DNA of 43,710 nt, taken from Candidatus Cloacimonadota bacterium (GTDB lineage: Bacteria > Cloacimonadota > Cloacimonadia > Cloacimonadales > TCS61). Within the stretch, counting starts at the first letter, position 1; each line of letters begins with the position of its first letter. Below the pieces are notes generated by a model. The model saw only the letters and a program-made list of their open reading frames with translations, ran no database searches and was not told the origin of the DNA. This document shows positions 32,275 to 40,485 of this stretch, in pieces. The stretch spans positions 1 to 43,710 of the forward strand of contig JAIPGP010000022.1 in the NCBI GenBank assembly GCA_021735645.1. Reading direction: 5' to 3'. The position numbers and the translations under genes were made by a program.

Positions 32275-32667
32275 TTAGCTGATGGCAATTCTTGCTATCG
32301 CTTTTCTAAGCGCTATTTCAGCTCGACGGAAGTCTACTTCGTCCTGATTGCTTTTTATTCTCTTTTCAGCACGCTCTTTGGCAGCTTCTGCTCTGGTTTT
32401 ATCTATCTCATCCGCTTTTTCTACCACTTCACAAAGAATGGTAACAATATTATTTTCTACAGTAACATAGCCATCATGTATGGCACATTTAGTGACCTCA
32501 CTATTATTATATATTTCTAATATACCAGGTCTGATGACAGATATAAAAGGGGTATGTCCATAGAAGACACCAAAATCCCCGTCCTTGCCGGGGATAATGA
32601 TATCATCAAATTCGGTTTCCAGAAATATCTTTTGTGGCTGAATGATCAATAACTTTAATTTTTCCAT
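32275..32667 (-). CDS. atpC: ATP synthase F1 epsilon subunit
   Basis: The 130-residue central-stalk subunit has the N-terminal barrel (LLIIQPQKIFLETEFDDIII, PGKDGDFGVFYGHTPFIS) and the C-terminal two-helix part (DKTRAEAAKERAEKRIKSNQ), which in other bacteria inhibits ATP hydrolysis. It starts 1 nt after the atpD stop. Confidence 0.94.
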   Translation of the reverse strand: MEKLKLLIIQPQKIFLETEFDDIIIPGKDGDFGVFYGHTPFISVIRPGILEIYNNSEVTKCAIHDGYVTVENNIVTILCEVVEKADEIDKTRAEAAKERAEKRIKSNQDEVDFRRAEIALRKAIARIAIS

Positions 32668-32668
32668 A

Positions 32669-34060
<1,392 letters not shown>

Positions 34061-34073
34061 CTATATCCCCTTA

Positions 34074-34931
34074 TTATTGATTCTGGGCTTCAGCACCAGA
34101 AGCAATCTCAATAATTTCATTTGTAATTGCTGCCTGACGTACCATATTGTACTGCAAGGTGAGTGATTCGATCAGGTCAGAAGCATTATCAGTAGCGCTA
34201 TCCATAGCTGTCATTCTGGTTCCCTGCTCAGCAGCAGATGATTCCAGCAGAATACGCCATATCTCCACATTGATATATTTATTTGTCAATTCTTCAATTA
34301 CTTCTTCTTCACCGGGTTCATACAAATAATCCAGCAGAGATACTCCTTCCAGAACCTTAATATCTGGGATTGGCAATACCTGCTTTTGGACTATATTCTG
34401 TTGGATGACGCTTTTAAATTCATTATAGATCACTTCTATATGGTCATATTCATTAGAGAAAAAATGATGCTTGAGATCACTCGCAATGTCTAACGATACG
34501 CTGAAATTCATTTCATTGAATAAACCAGTATATGACTTGATTATTTTCACGTCCTTCTTTTTGAATATATCTGTACCTTTTTTACCGATACAGAAAAGGT
34601 CAGTGTTTGGATGATCTTTTAAATACTGTAGAGCCGCCTTGATCACAAAAGAATTAAAGGAACCGCAAAGACCCCGATCAGCTGTAACTACTACTAAGGC
34701 GCATTTTGCCGTAGGTTCAGGCTGCACGAATATTTTTAAATCTGTCTCCCGGGATTTAAATTTAATGGTTGCGAGCATATGATTAATATTATCGGCATAA
34801 GGCCTGGCTTTAATAATGCCTTGTTGAGCCTTGCGCAATTTGGCTGCAGCTACCATTTTCATGGCATTAGTGATTTGACGTGTATTCCTGATACTGCCAA
34901 TTCTACTTTTTATGTCCCTGATGTTACCCAT
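34074..34931 (-). CDS. atpG: ATP synthase F1 gamma subunit
   Basis: The 285-residue rotor shaft has the conserved N-terminal coil (IKSRIGSIRNTRQITNAMKM, VAAAKLRKAQ), the VVTADRGLCGSFN core strand and the C-terminal coil with GTRMTAMDSATDNASDLI. It lies between atpA and atpD as usual. Confidence 0.96.
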   Translation of the reverse strand: MGNIRDIKSRIGSIRNTRQITNAMKMVAAAKLRKAQQGIIKARPYADNINHMLATIKFKSRETDLKIFVQPEPTAKCALVVVTADRGLCGSFNSFVIKAALQYLKDHPNTDLFCIGKKGTDIFKKKDVKIIKSYTGLFNEMNFSVSLDIASDLKHHFFSNEYDHIEVIYNEFKSVIQQNIVQKQVLPIPDIKVLEGVSLLDYLYEPGEEEVIEELTNKYINVEIWRILLESSAAEQGTRMTAMDSATDNASDLIESLTLQYNMVRQAAITNEIIEIASGAEAQNQ

Positions 34932-34940
34932 TGATAAAAC

Positions 34941-36440
34941 CTAAAATTTCTCTATAACTTTTTCACAGATAACTTTCATTTCATCAGTGATCTCATCTGT
35001 GATCTCATTTTCGAGCAATTTTTTTAAGAAATCTTTATGCTGTAGATCTAGGATATTAAAAAGATCTTCTTCTAATTGCGGTATTCTACCTAATTCAATA
35101 TCATCCAGATATCCCTGATTTGCCATAAAGATAATAAATATCTGTTTAGCAACACTGATTGGCTGATATTGACCCTGTTTCAAAATCTGCTGCAATCTCT
35201 CACCACGTTTTAATTGAGCCATTGTTGCCTTATCAAGATCACTGCCGAACTTGGCAAATGCCTGCAATTCAGAGAATTGTGCCAAATCAAGACGTAATTG
35301 CTGAACTACCGCACGCATTGCTTTGATCTGGGCACTTCCTCCCACTCGAGATACGGAAAGACCGGCATTAATAGCTGGTCTTTGACCTGAATGGAATAAT
35401 TTACTACTCAGATATATTTGACCATCGGTAATTGAAATTACATTAGTTGGGATATAGGCGGAAATATCTTCTGCCTGAGTTTCAATAATCGGCAGGGCTG
35501 TTAAAGAACCACCGCCTAAATCATCGTTAAGCTTGGAAGCTCTTTCCAGCAGACGTGAATGCAGATAAAATACATCTCCGGGATAGGCTTCTCTGCCCGG
35601 AGGCCTGCGCAGCAGCAGGGAAATTTCTCTATAAGCCACTGCATGCTTGGAAAGATCATCATAAATAATCAAGGCATGCTTGCCCTTATCTCTGAAATAT
35701 TCACCAATTGTGCAGCCTGAATAAGGTGCTATATAATTCATAGAAGCTGGATCAGAAGCTGATGTACAAACCACAATAGTGTAATCCATAGCATTATTTT
35801 CCTGGAGCTTCTTTACTATCTTGGCAACAGATGAATTCTTTTGTCCAATAGCTACATAAATGCAATAAACGTCACTATCTCTCTGATTAATTATTGTGTC
35901 TATAGCGATAGCAGTTTTCCCGGTCTGGCGATCACCAATGATCAATTCACGCTGCCCTCTGCCTATAGGGATCATGGAATCGATAGCTTTTATTCCTGTC
36001 TGGAGTGCTTCTTTTACTGGTTGGCGCTGGATAACGCCCAGAGCTTTACGTTCAATGGGTTGACTAATTTCTGATACTATCTCACCCTTGCCATCCAAAG
36101 GCTCCCCTAAAGCATTCACGACTCTTCCAAGAAGGGCTTCTCCTACCGGGATCTGCAAAATCTTACCCGTTCTGCGGACAATATCCCCTTGCATTACTTT
36201 ACTGGTCTCACCAAAGAGAATACAGCCTACATTGGTTTCTTCCAGATTAAGTGCCATACCCATGACGCCATTAGGAAATTCCAGCATTTCACTGGTCATC
36301 ACATTATTTAAACCATGCACCTGGGCGATTCCGTCACCTACCTGGATAACTATTCCTGTCTCAGCGATGTCAATCTCGAATTTAAAAGAGCTAATTTTCT
36401 CTTTAATTATCGAGCTGATTTCATCAGGTTGGATTTTCAT
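34941..36440 (-). CDS. atpA: ATP synthase F1 alpha subunit
   Basis: The 499-residue subunit shows Walker [15 protein letters not shown] near residue 170, the catalytic-site Arg region [20 protein letters not shown] near 360, and EVVSEISQ-type beta-barrel features near the N-terminus. It carries the non-catalytic nucleotide sites. Full length, with 11 nt to atpH. Confidence 0.97.
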
Positions 36441-36451
36441 CTTAACCTCAT

Positions 36452-36997
36452 TTATACCTGTTTTGGTTGTTTTTTTGTTACAAAGATTTTTAAATTATTC
36501 TTGAGTGATCCATCCACAATCATCGTATCAGATTCTGCATAAAAACCACCCAGCAGCTCTGGATCATACTCGATATCAGCGATTACTTCTTTTTTATAAA
36601 TCCCTTCTAAATACGTAATTATCTTATCAGTGGTGGATTTATCCTGTTTGTGTGCCAGCTTCAATCTTACTACCAAAGCATTCTGCTTATTATAGATTTC
36701 TCGCTCTAATTCCTTGAGAATATTTACTATCTGATGGAATCGAGTGTGATGTATCAGCAAAAAAAATAGTTTTTCCCACATCTCGCTAAAATGCAGAGTA
36801 TTAACTACCTCTCTGATCAGAAGGGTTTTTTGCTGCTTACTAACCAGTCTGGTTTTTAATATTTCAATTAATTTAGGCTGCTCAATAAAGAGTGCTTTCA
36901 AGGTTTCAACATCTTTCAGGCAGATTTGATATTCTTCATGTTCCATAACCTCTGCAACTGATTTTGCATATTTCTTGATAATTAATAAGTCATTCAA
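36452..36997 (-). CDS. atpH: ATP synthase F1 delta subunit (OSCP)
   Basis: The 181-residue peripheral-stalk subunit has the usual beginning [16 protein letters not shown] and end ([29 protein letters not shown]). It starts with TTG directly after the atpF stop, with AGAAGG inside atpF as ribosome site; no in-frame ATG lies near. The TTG start may lower its yield, which fits one copy per enzyme. Confidence 0.93.
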
Positions 36998-37474
36998 CTA
37001 TTTACCTTCTTTGATGATATACTCAATCAAATCCTTATCCTGCTCATCATCGACTTTTTTATTAAGCAATTTAGCAGTCAAATCAGAAACAAGAACCGCA
37101 ATCTCCTGCTCAATCTGTTGCTGGGCAACTTCCTGCTTATGAGCCAATTGATCTTCAGTTTCCTGCATTATGTGTATCTTTCTTTCCTTGGCTTCTCGCA
37201 ATATGTCATCAGCTTTACGTTCCGCTTCTTTCTTTGCCTTCTGGTTAAGTTCTCTGATATCTTCAGATGATTTTTTAAGTTCTTCATCTCTCTGCTTTAG
37301 TAATTCATCGGCTGATTTATGCTTATCTTTTGCCTGATCTATTTCCTGCTGAACACTTTTCTGTCTATCAGTTAAAAACTGCTTCAAAGGCTTGAAAAGC
37401 AGTTTATTAAGTACTATCAGCAGAAGAATGAAATTCAGAATTACGATTATCATCGAATAATCAATACTGATCAT
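36998..37474 (-). CDS. atpF: ATP synthase Fo b subunit
   Basis: The 158-residue product has one N-terminal membrane helix (IIVILNFILLLIVLNKLLF) followed by FKPLKQFLTDRQKSVQQEID and a long charged coiled coil rich in Lys, Glu and Gln. It forms the peripheral stalk with delta. AAGGAAG precedes the ATG. Only one b-type gene is seen, so it probably forms a homodimer. Confidence 0.94.
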   Translation of the reverse strand: MISIDYSMIIVILNFILLLIVLNKLLFKPLKQFLTDRQKSVQQEIDQAKDKHKSADELLKQRDEELKKSSEDIRELNQKAKKEAERKADDILREAKERKIHIMQETEDQLAHKQEVAQQQIEQEIAVLVSDLTAKLLNKKVDDEQDKDLIEYIIKEGK

Positions 37475-37511: not shown

Positions 37512-37748
37512 TCAGGTTGAGAAGATAAGCAGTAGTGCGATTACCAGAGAATAAATTCCAGTAGATTCTGATACAGCCTGACCTACGAGCATTGTTCTGG
37601 TGATCAAACTGGCGTGTTCGGGTGCTCTCGCAATACCTTCGCAGGCTTTCCCAGCCACAAATCCTTCACCAATACCAGGTCCCAGTGCTCCAATTCCCAT
37701 AGCGATTCCTGCACCTAAAAGTGCAGCAGCTCTTGCTAATTGATCCAT
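37512..37748 (-). CDS. atpE: ATP synthase Fo c subunit, single hairpin with sodium-type site
   Basis: The 78-residue proteolipid forms one helical hairpin. Helix 1 carries [19 protein letters not shown] with Glu28 where Ilyobacter tartaricus has Gln32; helix 2 carries [20 protein letters not shown] with the ion-binding Glu61, Ser62, Thr63 and Tyr66. All but the Gln match the sodium-binding set, and a carboxylate in both helices is known from the Fusobacterium nucleatum ring. CGGAGG is a strong ribosome site, stronger than that of the three-hairpin gene before it, in keeping with a multi-copy subunit. Sodium use is inference from these residues. Confidence 0.95.
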
Positions 37749-37778
37749 ATTTTCCTCCGTTTATATTTTCTATTCATA

Positions 37779-38540
37779 CTATTTTACTGAAAATATTAAT
37801 AAAAATGATACTACAAGCGCATAGATGGCAGTAGATTGTGATACAGCTGCTCCCAGAAACATTGTCCGCATGATATGTGATTTCTGCCTGGGAAATTTTC
37901 CGATCATTCGGCAGCCTTTTCCGGCGACATTGCCAATACCAACTCCAGGACCAATAGTTCCTATTCCTATAGCCAGTCCTGCACCTATATATGCAACAGA
38001 TCTTAAAAGAATATGTCCCGCAGTGAGATTTGGGATACTATCCTGCAAAGGTGTTGAATATAATAATAATAAACTAACCAGTAGAGCAAATATACTGGAT
38101 GTCTGTGCTAACGCCTGACCTATCAGCATATACCCAAGGATAGAATTTGATTGCCTGGGCATTCTGCTAATAGCATGGCAAGCTTGTCCACCTGCGTATC
38201 CAGCTCCAGTAACAGGTCCCAGAGAACCTAATCCAACAGCGATTCCTGCTGATAATAAAGCTGCAAATCTGAACCAGCCACCTTCAACTACATCAAATCC
38301 GCCAAACATAAGTAGCAGAGCTATCACAAGCGAGAATATTCCACCAGTCTCAGTAACTGCCTGACCAATGAACATAGCTCTAAATAGCTTATCATGTGAA
38401 TCTGGTTGTCTCATAATGCCATAAGAGGCTGCACTGGCAATATAGCCAACACCCATTCCACAGGTAATAGAAGCAATCCCAACACTGAGTGCAGCACCCA
38501 GAAAGGCAGCTATTTGTATTGTTTCCATTGTAAAAATCAT
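37779..38540 (-). CDS. Triplicated (three-hairpin) ATP synthase c-type subunit with one ion-binding Glu
   Basis: The 253-residue proteolipid contains three fused c hairpins, six membrane helices in all. Hairpin 1 (about 5-80) ends with FIGQAVTETGGIFSLVIALL and keeps the carboxylate Glu64. Hairpin 2 (about 90-162) has LIGQALAQTSSIFALLVSLL with Gln146 in that place. Hairpin 3 (about 176-252) has FLGAAVSQSTAIYALVVSFL with Gln235. The helix-1 positions matching Glu28 of AtpE are Val31, Ala113 and Ile202. So one site is left per six helices, much as in V-type 16-kDa proteolipids. It lies between atpB and atpE, which places it in the same rotor. A pump-like or slowed-gear role is inference. The start chosen is ATG 38540 behind GGAG; an ATG four codons later is possible. 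Confidence 0.93.
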   Translation of the reverse strand: MIFTMETIQIAAFLGAALSVGIASITCGMGVGYIASAASYGIMRQPDSHDKLFRAMFIGQAVTETGGIFSLVIALLLMFGGFDVVEGGWFRFAALLSAGIAVGLGSLGPVTGAGYAGGQACHAISRMPRQSNSILGYMLIGQALAQTSSIFALLVSLLLLYSTPLQDSIPNLTAGHILLRSVAYIGAGLAIGIGTIGPGVGIGNVAGKGCRMIGKFPRQKSHIMRTMFLGAAVSQSTAIYALVVSFLLIFSVK

Positions 38541-38547
38541 ATTTTTG

Positions 38548-39831
38548 CTACTCCGAAATCTCTACACCAATATAGGTTAATGCCAGCATTGTAAAAACAA
38601 AAGCCTGCACTGTCCCAACAAATATACCAAAAAATAAATTCAAACCAACTGGTAAAACTATATAACTCACTAAGGAAGAGACAACCACGATGATAATAGC
38701 CCCACCAAGGATATTTCCAAACAGTCTGAAAGATATTGATATCACTTTGGAAAATTCACTTACAATATCCAGGGCAGCAAGAGGATTTTTTATGGGATTT
38801 AAATAATGTTCAAAATGACCCCAAATACCTTTTACTCTGATTGCCGTAAAATGAACTACGAGTATCACGATTATTCCTATTCCCAATGGGACATTAATAT
38901 TTCTGGTAGGTTCCATGAAACCAGGAATCGGAATCAATCCCACCATATTACATATCCAGATAAACAAAAATATGGTTACAATATAAGGAGTGAAATGAAG
39001 TTTGTCTTTTCCAAGTGTGTCGGAAACAAATTCCTCAAAGGTATTATAGATCATTTCCATGATCAATTGGCCCTTGGAAGGCTTACCAGAAAGACTCTTC
39101 TTCAGGAAGATGACTAATAGAATAAATATAAAATCAACAATAAACAGCATTCTGATAAGATAAAATGCACCTAATGCTGAAGCTTCACCAAATAAAGTCC
39201 TGAATATCTGATAAGCTTTGTAACTGCCATAAATACCGGGTAAATACTCTTGTCTTGCAAGTATAGTCTCAGGTATAAACTTTTCGAAAATTATTCGGTT
39301 TAAACGGGCATGATCTAGGGGAGTCAAGTTAGATTCGGCTTTTGCCAATTCAGTTAAGTAATAATCTGTTTCAGGGGAGACATCTTTGATATAATCTTTG
39401 AATTTAGCTTCATAAAATTTCTGATTGCCGATCACATTCTTATTTAATTCGTTGATCAATTCAGTTTTATTGCTGTAATTCCAGATCGGGTCAGAGTTTT
39501 TTATATTATTTTGCAATCCTTCATTAATTACACTAAATGCCTTATTCATAAAAGGATTATCCATAGTCAGGGATTCCGTGAATTTCTGAAAGTCGTGAAT
39601 TTCATATAAATGTAAACGAGTATTTTTAACTAGAAATTCATCTCGCTGAAAATCCTCAGTGATTTTATCTTGAAGGTCATAATGACCTGGAATATTTCTG
39701 AAGACCAGTTTCCCAGAATCAAATCCTATCTCTAATTTTTTATTAAAACCAGAGCTTATAAGCACTAATGCTAATTCTATAAGTATAAATATGAGAAAAA
39801 CCCATCTCAGGTTTCCCTTCTTTTTTGCCAT
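38548..39831 (-). CDS. atpB: ATP synthase Fo a subunit with long extracytoplasmic insertion
   Basis: The C-terminal 215 residues are a standard a subunit: PTRNINVPLGIGIIVILVVH, the essential Arg in SISFRLFGNILGG (about residue 369) and FVGTVQAFVFTMLALTYIGV. Before it come a first membrane helix (about 9-27) and some 185 mainly charged residues (about 30-215), making 427 residues in total against the usual 220-300. The insertion has no Cys and no motif known to me, and should lie outside the inner membrane. The next gene, the three-hairpin c protein, starts 7 nt later. Confidence 0.94.
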   Translation of the reverse strand: MAKKKGNLRWVFLIFILIELALVLISSGFNKKLEIGFDSGKLVFRNIPGHYDLQDKITEDFQRDEFLVKNTRLHLYEIHDFQKFTESLTMDNPFMNKAFSVINEGLQNNIKNSDPIWNYSNKTELINELNKNVIGNQKFYEAKFKDYIKDVSPETDYYLTELAKAESNLTPLDHARLNRIIFEKFIPETILARQEYLPGIYGSYKAYQIFRTLFGEASALGAFYLIRMLFIVDFIFILLVIFLKKSLSGKPSKGQLIMEMIYNTFEEFVSDTLGKDKLHFTPYIVTIFLFIWICNMVGLIPIPGFMEPTRNINVPLGIGIIVILVVHFTAIRVKGIWGHFEHYLNPIKNPLAALDIVSEFSKVISISFRLFGNILGGAIIIVVVSSLVSYIVLPVGLNLFFGIFVGTVQAFVFTMLALTYIGVEISE

Positions 39832-39833
39832 TT

Positions 39834-40220
39834 TTACTCCTGTTTCTCACTGCCTTTGTGAAACCTGATTAGATATAATATAAATATCCAAATCTGTCCC
39901 GACAATAATCCTACCCCAAATATTATAATATTCAGGCTTAGATACTTTACAGCCAGAATAGAACCAGCAATAAGGATTAAATATCTGAAATTAAAATCCT
40001 TATATGCCATTAACCTCGCTTTCTTTGAACTTGCATAGAGACTTTTCTCTATCTTAAGCGACATTAACCAGATATTGAAGAGACTAAGAGTAGCTCCGCA
40101 AATCCAGCTCAAACTCTGCCTTGGCATCATAGGCAAAAAAATTAAGGCAATGATGTTTGTCAAGCTAATTAATCTAAGTAAAATTACTATAAATTCTTTA
40201 TTATTGAACACTTTATTCAC
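39834..40220 (-). CDS. atpI: ATP synthase I-like membrane protein
   Basis: The 128-residue product has four membrane helices (VILLRLISLTNIIALIFLPM, LSWICGATLSLFNIWLM, YLILIAGSILAVKYLSLNII, FGVGLLSGQIWIFILYLI), the size and layout of the AtpI/UncI family that assists c-ring assembly or Mg/Ca supply. It starts at GTG within the last codons of atpZ and ends 2 nt before atpB. Family call is by layout and context. Confidence 0.75.
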   Translation of the reverse strand: MNKVFNNKEFIVILLRLISLTNIIALIFLPMMPRQSLSWICGATLSLFNIWLMSLKIEKSLYASSKKARLMAYKDFNFRYLILIAGSILAVKYLSLNIIIFGVGLLSGQIWIFILYLIRFHKGSEKQE

Positions 40221-40485
40221 TTTTCGTAATCACATTTTTAAGCAATTTATAAGATCCGAGCATTCCCGTAAATATTCCCATGATAATTCCCAGAACCTGC
40301 CAGATTTGTCCAATTCCCAATGCTTTTATCAGGTATCTTGACAAAAAAAAACAGATCAATATACTGATAATCATAACTAAGCCCAATTGACCTGCTAAAG
40401 ATAGATATTTGATAAAACCATAATCTTTCATTCTCATTTCAGCTAATAACTGCTCTTTTCTAACGTCTTTATTTTTATTATTCAT
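40213..40485 (-). CDS. atpZ: AtpZ/ATPase gene 1-like membrane protein
   Basis: The 90-residue product has two membrane helices (AGQLGLVMIISILICFFLS and IWQVLGIIMGIFTGMLGSYK), the pattern of the small AtpZ proteins (PF09527) encoded at the head of many atp operons. It starts 4 nt after the M23 peptidase gene and overlaps atpI by 8 nt. It probably helps ring assembly with AtpI. Confidence 0.8.
   Translation of the reverse strand: MNNKNKDVRKEQLLAEMRMKDYGFIKYLSLAGQLGLVMIISILICFFLSRYLIKALGIGQIWQVLGIIMGIFTGMLGSYKLLKNVITKSE

Follow-up and report, generated by a model that had tools for sequence, protein, structure and literature searches.

How can the rotor of an ATP synthase accommodate a c subunit with three helical hairpins and only one ion-binding carboxylate? 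This question is raised by a gene in a 43,710-nucleotide stretch of DNA from a Candidatus Cloacimonadota bacterium (assembly GCA_021735645.1, contig JAIPGP010000022.1, positions 1 to 43,710), which was analysed at its full length and is called the window here. The gene lies in an F-type ATP synthase operon and encodes a fused three-hairpin c subunit, hereafter c3. How many ions an ATP costs, and how low the membrane energy can be for ATP still to be made, depend on how many ion sites a ring carries. We consider it probable that c3 forms a minor part of the rotor in a Na+-type F1Fo ATP synthase that uses fewer ions per ATP; from the genes and their relatives we infer that it enters the ring, in how many copies, which ion is used and how the ion/ATP ratio is affected.

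Identification of the fused c subunit

The Pfam model ATP-synt_C (PF00137) matched c3 three times and AtpE, the single-hairpin c subunit, once, at 47.7-64.9 bits each (cut-off 24 bits), and no match beyond these four was found in the 3.77-Mb genome. The total score of c3 against this model was 146 bits. These matches and the aligned codons confirmed what an earlier note on this DNA had described, namely three c-type hairpins in 253 residues with Glu64, Gln146 and Gln235, which all stand at the aligned ion site of their hairpins; the position of c3 beside a normal AtpE in an F-type operon, between atpB and atpE, was found as the note had it. Several F-type c models were passed by c3, including TIGR01260 (97.9 against a cut-off of 43.95), whereas the V/A-type K models stayed under their cut-offs (PRK06271, 75 against 211; PRK06558, 60 against 127), and by these NCBIfam cut-offs the transfer of a V-type proteolipid into the operon was ruled out. 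The AlphaFold2 model of c3, built with 38 homologues, has six membrane-spanning helices (mean predicted local distance difference test score 94, predicted template modelling score 0.89), and the closest PDB entry both by sequence (E=3.5e-29) and by fold is the c1 subunit of Acetobacterium woodii (4bem_J).

Full-length, in-frame homologues that are 97%, 94% and 78% identical to c3, all with the pattern Glu/Gln/Gln, were found in three other genomes, which speaks against an assembly artefact; the locus with 94% identity is that of Candidatus Stygibacter frigidus, and the window is likewise assigned to Candidatus Stygibacter. A scan of the genome contigs gave two relatives only. An assembly or frameshift artefact was ruled out by the same open reading frame in 63 parsed genomes, and a pseudogene by a ratio of nonsynonymous to synonymous substitution rates (dN/dS) of 0.016-0.03 overall, which is low in every hairpin. 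c3 is under strong purifying selection.

Ion-binding positions of c3 and AtpE

A Na+ site of the F type is shared between neighbours: one subunit provides Glu32 and Glu65, and the subunit next to it provides Ser66/Val63 (PMC3692424). AtpE of the window has the corresponding two-carboxylate Na+-type motif, Glu28 with Glu61-Ser62-Thr63, and Ala replaces the first Gly of its GxGxGxGxG motif. Every hairpin of c3 retains the glycine pattern of c subunits and the Pro motif of the cytoplasmic loop, in which QP is invariant in hairpin 1, R-x-P is invariant in hairpin 2 and P is kept at about 90% in hairpin 3. Among the Cloacimonadota c3 hairpins without a site Glu, the replacing residue is Gln in 87 of 88 and Gly in one, and none of the 88 has Glu or Gln at the helix-1 ligand position. 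The Ser/Thr that serves as a ligand of the neighbouring site is nevertheless kept in 83 of these 88 hairpins, and in other phyla in 59 of 60. Because carboxylate-free hairpins almost always keep the ligand for their neighbour, they appear to have given up their own site and yet to be able to complete the adjacent one, which argues for ring membership of c3. Packing could be an alternative reason for the conservation of Ser/Thr.

Among the 38 relatives with the site Glu in hairpin 1, 32 have Glu also at the helix-1 ligand position of this hairpin. The c3 of the window has Val31 there, whereas AtpE has Glu28 at the equivalent position. The Glu64 site is thus without one Na+ ligand, its helix-1 partner, and because Val31 replaces the Glu of most relatives, it may be a poor site for Na+ or accept H+ instead. 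The earlier claim of one ion site therefore stood insofar as Glu64 is the sole carboxylate of c3; the accompanying assumption of a good site did not.

Distribution and evolution of the site number

A search for c3 in 125 Cloacimonadota genomes matched 72, of which 70 lie outside one family (f10). Members of f10 have mostly a V-type ATPase, and two of its genomes gave only one weak match, to another kind of c. The c subunits at these two loci (L072 and L073, in genomes G094 and G078) are unlike both c3 and AtpE and resemble the N-ATPase c. In the 70 non-f10 genomes, as the earlier note had proposed to look for, a fused c adjoins atpB, and it is beside atpE in nearly all; their Glu/Gln sites were aligned. 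The form is thus not unique, as had been supposed, and it ranges from three sites to none. The patterns of hairpins 1 to 3 in 63 full-length c3 proteins were EQE (24), QQE (22), EEE (8), EQQ (6), QQQ (2) and GQE (1).

The site history was followed on a c3 tree that was built without the ion-site columns. The root of this tree is EQE, which is probably the ancestral pattern. From there, hairpin 3 changed from Glu to Gln five times, hairpin 1 was left without its Glu in a single clade, and hairpin 2 acquired a Glu three times. One-site c3 was reached about four times, as EQQ three times (Stygibacter with its sister genus, G107 and G049) and as QQE/GQE once, and zero-site c3 arose twice. The helix-2 Glu was kept in 62 of 62 AtpE copies, and the two QQQ genomes have only one further c gene each, which is AtpE.

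Some loci depart from the three-hairpin form. In genome G124 (L064:658-1149), a two-hairpin c with both Glu (EE) stands in place of c3, possibly as a secondary shortening. The 1.2-Mb genome G125 (L097:2365-3315) has a four-hairpin c beside atpB with the sites E, Q, E and D, and its only other c match is far off on the same contig. In the metagenome-assembled genome G109 (L071), the c3 frame is broken between hairpins 1 and 2 by a frameshift, a deletion or an assembly error.

Outside Cloacimonadota, a fused c beside a two-carboxylate AtpE was present in about 15 sampled genomes. EQQ was found in four of them, together with four-hairpin forms (ESQQ, EEQQ, ESSQ), two-hairpin forms (EQ or EE) and carboxylate-free forms (SQQ, GQ, GQQQ). 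In three small phyla a fused c is present in all sampled genomes (12/12, 4/4 and 2/2), and in one of them most are SQQ. The atpB-c3-atpE order is kept across phyla. In a hairpin tree of 72 columns, the hairpins of different phyla sort by position, hairpin 1 with hairpin 1 and hairpin 2 with hairpin 2, the third hairpin of Cloacimonadota c3 groups nearer AtpE, and both hairpins of A. woodii c1 group with A. woodii c2 (100/99) and not with c3. On so few columns this is suggestive, but not firm, evidence of an old fused family with an origin separate from that of A. woodii c1.

Role of c3 in the rotor

We hypothesize that c3 enters the c-ring among AtpE hairpins, most likely once, where it would supply three consecutive hairpins, of which only the first has a carboxylate in the organism of the window. 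The hairpins of the ring would then outnumber its ion-binding positions, and fewer ions would cross per turn, in which three ATP are made. With AtpE fixed, a lineage could reset the ion number through Glu/Gln exchanges in c3, each of them a change in one codon. The mixed ring with fewer ion sites that the earlier note had proposed is supported indirectly by the conservation of c3, purifying selection, adjacency to atpB, the retained ligand for the neighbouring site, and the gene order and Glu-to-Gln change of A. woodii c1. Ring membership is also favoured by the glycine pattern and loop Pro motifs in every hairpin, by the atpB-c3-atpE order shared by different phyla and by A. woodii and Clostridium aceticum (PMC7911925), and by the two lineages with a broken operon, in which c3 remained at atpB.

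By comparing the Shine-Dalgarno sequences of both c genes, that of atpE was stronger in 56 of 61 loci (median duplex energies -9.3 and -6.1; Wilcoxon p=2e-11, which overstates independence since the loci are related). Among close relatives, the synonymous divergence (dS) of atpE is about one third of that of c3, which is what higher expression of atpE would lead one to expect. Furthermore, the Shine-Dalgarno sequence of c3 in the window overlaps the stop codon of atpB, the gene of a single-copy subunit. Both the Shine-Dalgarno strengths and dS fit a rotor built mostly of AtpE with c3 in the minority, perhaps as a single copy per ring.

Changes in the glycine motif of c subunits alter ring size. 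All characterised Na+ F-type rings have 11 hairpins (PMC3692424), a number that we do not assume here because in AtpE the first Gly of that motif is replaced by Ala. If one EQQ c3 is present per ring, 11 hairpins give 9 sites and 3.0 ions per ATP, 12 give 10 sites and 13 give 11 sites, so that this conditional arithmetic yields 3.0-3.7 ions per ATP for 11-13 hairpins. With fewer ions per ATP, a lower phosphorylation potential is sustained at a given ion gradient (PMC5662883), and a lower ratio fits an organism at low energy yield. The AtpE motif points to a Na+-type enzyme, the genome has two NQR2/RnfD-family proteins, and the Cloacimonadota enzyme has been called a Na+-dependent F-type, by inference (PMC8542988). 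The suggestion that the ring favours pumping was not supported: the genome encodes NQR/Rnf-type ion pumps, and since a search of it gave no rotary ATP synthase but this one, a main role in pumping is unlikely.

Several observations weigh against the proposed role of c3 in the ring. The zero-carboxylate forms QQQ, SQQ and GQQQ imply, by computation, an arc of at least 110-130 degrees without a site, which is hard to reconcile with the usual stepping between the a-subunit Arg and the carboxylates. These forms make a place of c3 in the ring more surprising and are the best argument that c3 could be located outside the mature ring, as an assembly factor or a plug-like paralogue resembling the rotor; zero-site forms are seen in two genomes of Cloacimonadota and predominate in one small phylum. 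The kept cross-interface ligands and loop motifs speak against such a location, as do the AtpI-type genes already present in the same operon and the place of A. woodii c1 in the ring (4bem_J), and we regard it as quite improbable. In addition, Glu/Gln exchange (2-5 changes per site on the tree) does not proceed at a higher rate than the conservative exchanges V/I or S/A, and because of this rate the changes may be nearly neutral and not a tuning of the gear. Moreover, the ring size may differ from 11, given the Ala in the glycine motif of AtpE.

Near-neutral change would suit a c3 whose place in the ring is to seed assembly or to set ring size, as a covalent three-hairpin starter whose carboxylates drift and whose few missing sites are tolerated, so that no gear change was selected. 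The possible coupling of c3 to atpB at one copy per complex, the recurrent Glu/Gln changes at rates like those of conservative exchanges, and the spread of site counts from three to zero are in line with this explanation. However, the site stays isosteric (Gln in all the non-Glu states of Cloacimonadota except the one Gly), which suggests constraint, and AtpE is never without its Glu, so we judge the seed unlikely. Rings with several c3 subunits, or made of c3 only, would act as V-type-like few-site pumps for ion extrusion, and many V-type rings do have one site per two hairpins (PMC2359735). Little credence can be given to this: the genomes checked all have an atpE, in which the Glu is never lost and which has the stronger Shine-Dalgarno sequence, the QQQ genomes would be left with zero sites, and the lack of another rotary ATP synthase in the genome again stands against a pump.

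If c3 is in the ring, its relatives form a natural series of enzymes that are alike except in having anything from zero to three c3 sites. It would mean a direct test of whether a ring must present a carboxylate to the stator arginine at every step, and of whether energy-limited organisms cut the ions per ATP by disabling sites and not by changing ring size. With relatives at every count from three to none, the ion cost of each ATP may have been reset time and again during evolution. With rather less assurance, at somewhat under an even chance, we propose a widespread class of bacterial Na+ F-type ATP synthases with one fused three- or four-hairpin c per ring, in which carboxylates were lost repeatedly and independently, down to none, leaving a siteless arc of about 90-130 degrees, and in which the ion/ATP ratio is tuned by point changes in this single subunit with ring size unchanged.

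Operon organization and stator

A complete F-type operon surrounds c3, in the order ATPase_gene1-type gene, atpI, atpB, c3, atpE, atpF, atpH, atpA, atpG, atpD and atpC (Table 1). The AtpB of the window (427 residues) has an N-terminus about 115 residues longer than that of most open reading frames of the family (about 312 residues), and a long AtpB is also encoded at L008, L043 and L046. A coevolving stator was considered and rejected: no compensation is visible in the context of the a-subunit Arg (S-I/L-S/A-FRLFGN), which is essentially the same with a c3 of three or zero sites. A second rotary ATPase was likewise rejected, with no V_ATPase_I match and no further c gene found in the genome.

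In two lineages with a broken operon, c3 remained beside atpB and atpE was relocated. The atp operon of G122 (L062/L063) is split with atpB-c3 together and atpE elsewhere with atpF-H; that of G107 (L055) is split in the same way, and atpA follows directly after c3.

Table 1. Features of the ATP synthase operon in the window
Feature	Position	Strand	Remarks
ATPase_gene1-type small membrane protein (AtpI/AtpZ-like)	40213..40485	(-)	PF09527
atpI (ATP synthase I chain)	39834..40220	(-)	PF03899
atpB (a subunit)	38548..39831	(-)	PF00119, 156 bits; stator Arg in SISFRLFGN; N-terminal extension
Shine-Dalgarno-like CGGAGT of c3	38550..38555	(-)	duplex energy -6.1; overlaps atpB stop codon
c3 (fused three-hairpin c subunit)	37779..38540	(-)	253 residues; open reading frame with ATG start; three ATP-synt_C matches
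Val31 of c3	38448..38450	(-)	helix-1 ligand position, hairpin 1
Glu64 of c3 (GAG)	38349..38351	(-)	only site carboxylate, hairpin 1
Gln146 of c3 (CAG)	38103..38105	(-)	site of hairpin 2
Gln235 of c3 (CAA)	37836..37838	(-)	site of hairpin 3
Strong Shine-Dalgarno CGGAGGA of atpE	37753..37759	(-)	duplex energy -9.5
atpE (single-hairpin c)	37512..37748	(-)	Glu28 in helix 1; Glu61-Ser62-Thr63 in helix 2
atpF (b)	36998..37474	(-)	
atpH (delta)	36452..36997	(-)	
atpA (alpha)	34941..36440	(-)	
atpG (gamma)	34074..34931	(-)	
atpD (beta)	32669..34060	(-)	
atpC (epsilon)	32275..32667	(-)	

Comparison with known rotors

No account of a three-hairpin F-type form turned up in the literature when it was searched for F-type c subunits with three hairpins or triplicated, for the Cloacimonadota ATP synthase and for heteromeric rings, though a review of hybrid rotors may list such forms. 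Of the helix-2 carboxylates that mark the hairpins of the F-type c family, c3 of the window has the one in hairpin 1 only. The V-type K subunits (NtpK of Enterococcus hirae and the eukaryotic c, c' and c'') are also fused, have fewer carboxylates than hairpins and match c3 in fold, at about 16-25% sequence identity. In Methanocaldococcus jannaschii and its relatives, the triplicated K has lost some of its sites, and the ring of this A-type enzyme is probably made of triplicated K alone. The triplicated K has three hairpins in one chain, as does c3 (PMC2359735), whereas the window has an F-type operon and a separate AtpE. The Na+-driven ring of Fusobacterium nucleatum has the same Glu in helix 1 and Glu-Ser-Thr in helix 2 as AtpE of the window (PMC3692424); it is homomeric with 11 subunits, whereas AtpE has Ala for the first Gly of the motif.

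The Na+ hybrid rotor of A. woodii and Clostridium aceticum, which consists of c1 and c2/c3 (4bem; PMC7911925), comes closest among known systems. Common to it and to the window are an F-type operon in which a fused c is directly followed by one or more genes for a single-hairpin c, and the Na+-type motif in the single-hairpin c. Furthermore, c1 of both species has Glu in hairpin 1 and Gln in hairpin 2, the same Glu-to-Gln loss as in c3 of the window. On the other hand, A. woodii c1 has two hairpins, while c3 of the window has three and other fused relatives have up to four. Fewer carboxylates than hairpins, as in the A. woodii type, are found in c3 of the window (one in three) and in most of its relatives, with EEE in eight. 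Unlike that of the A. woodii hybrid rotor, the site number of c3 varies from three to zero among relatives.
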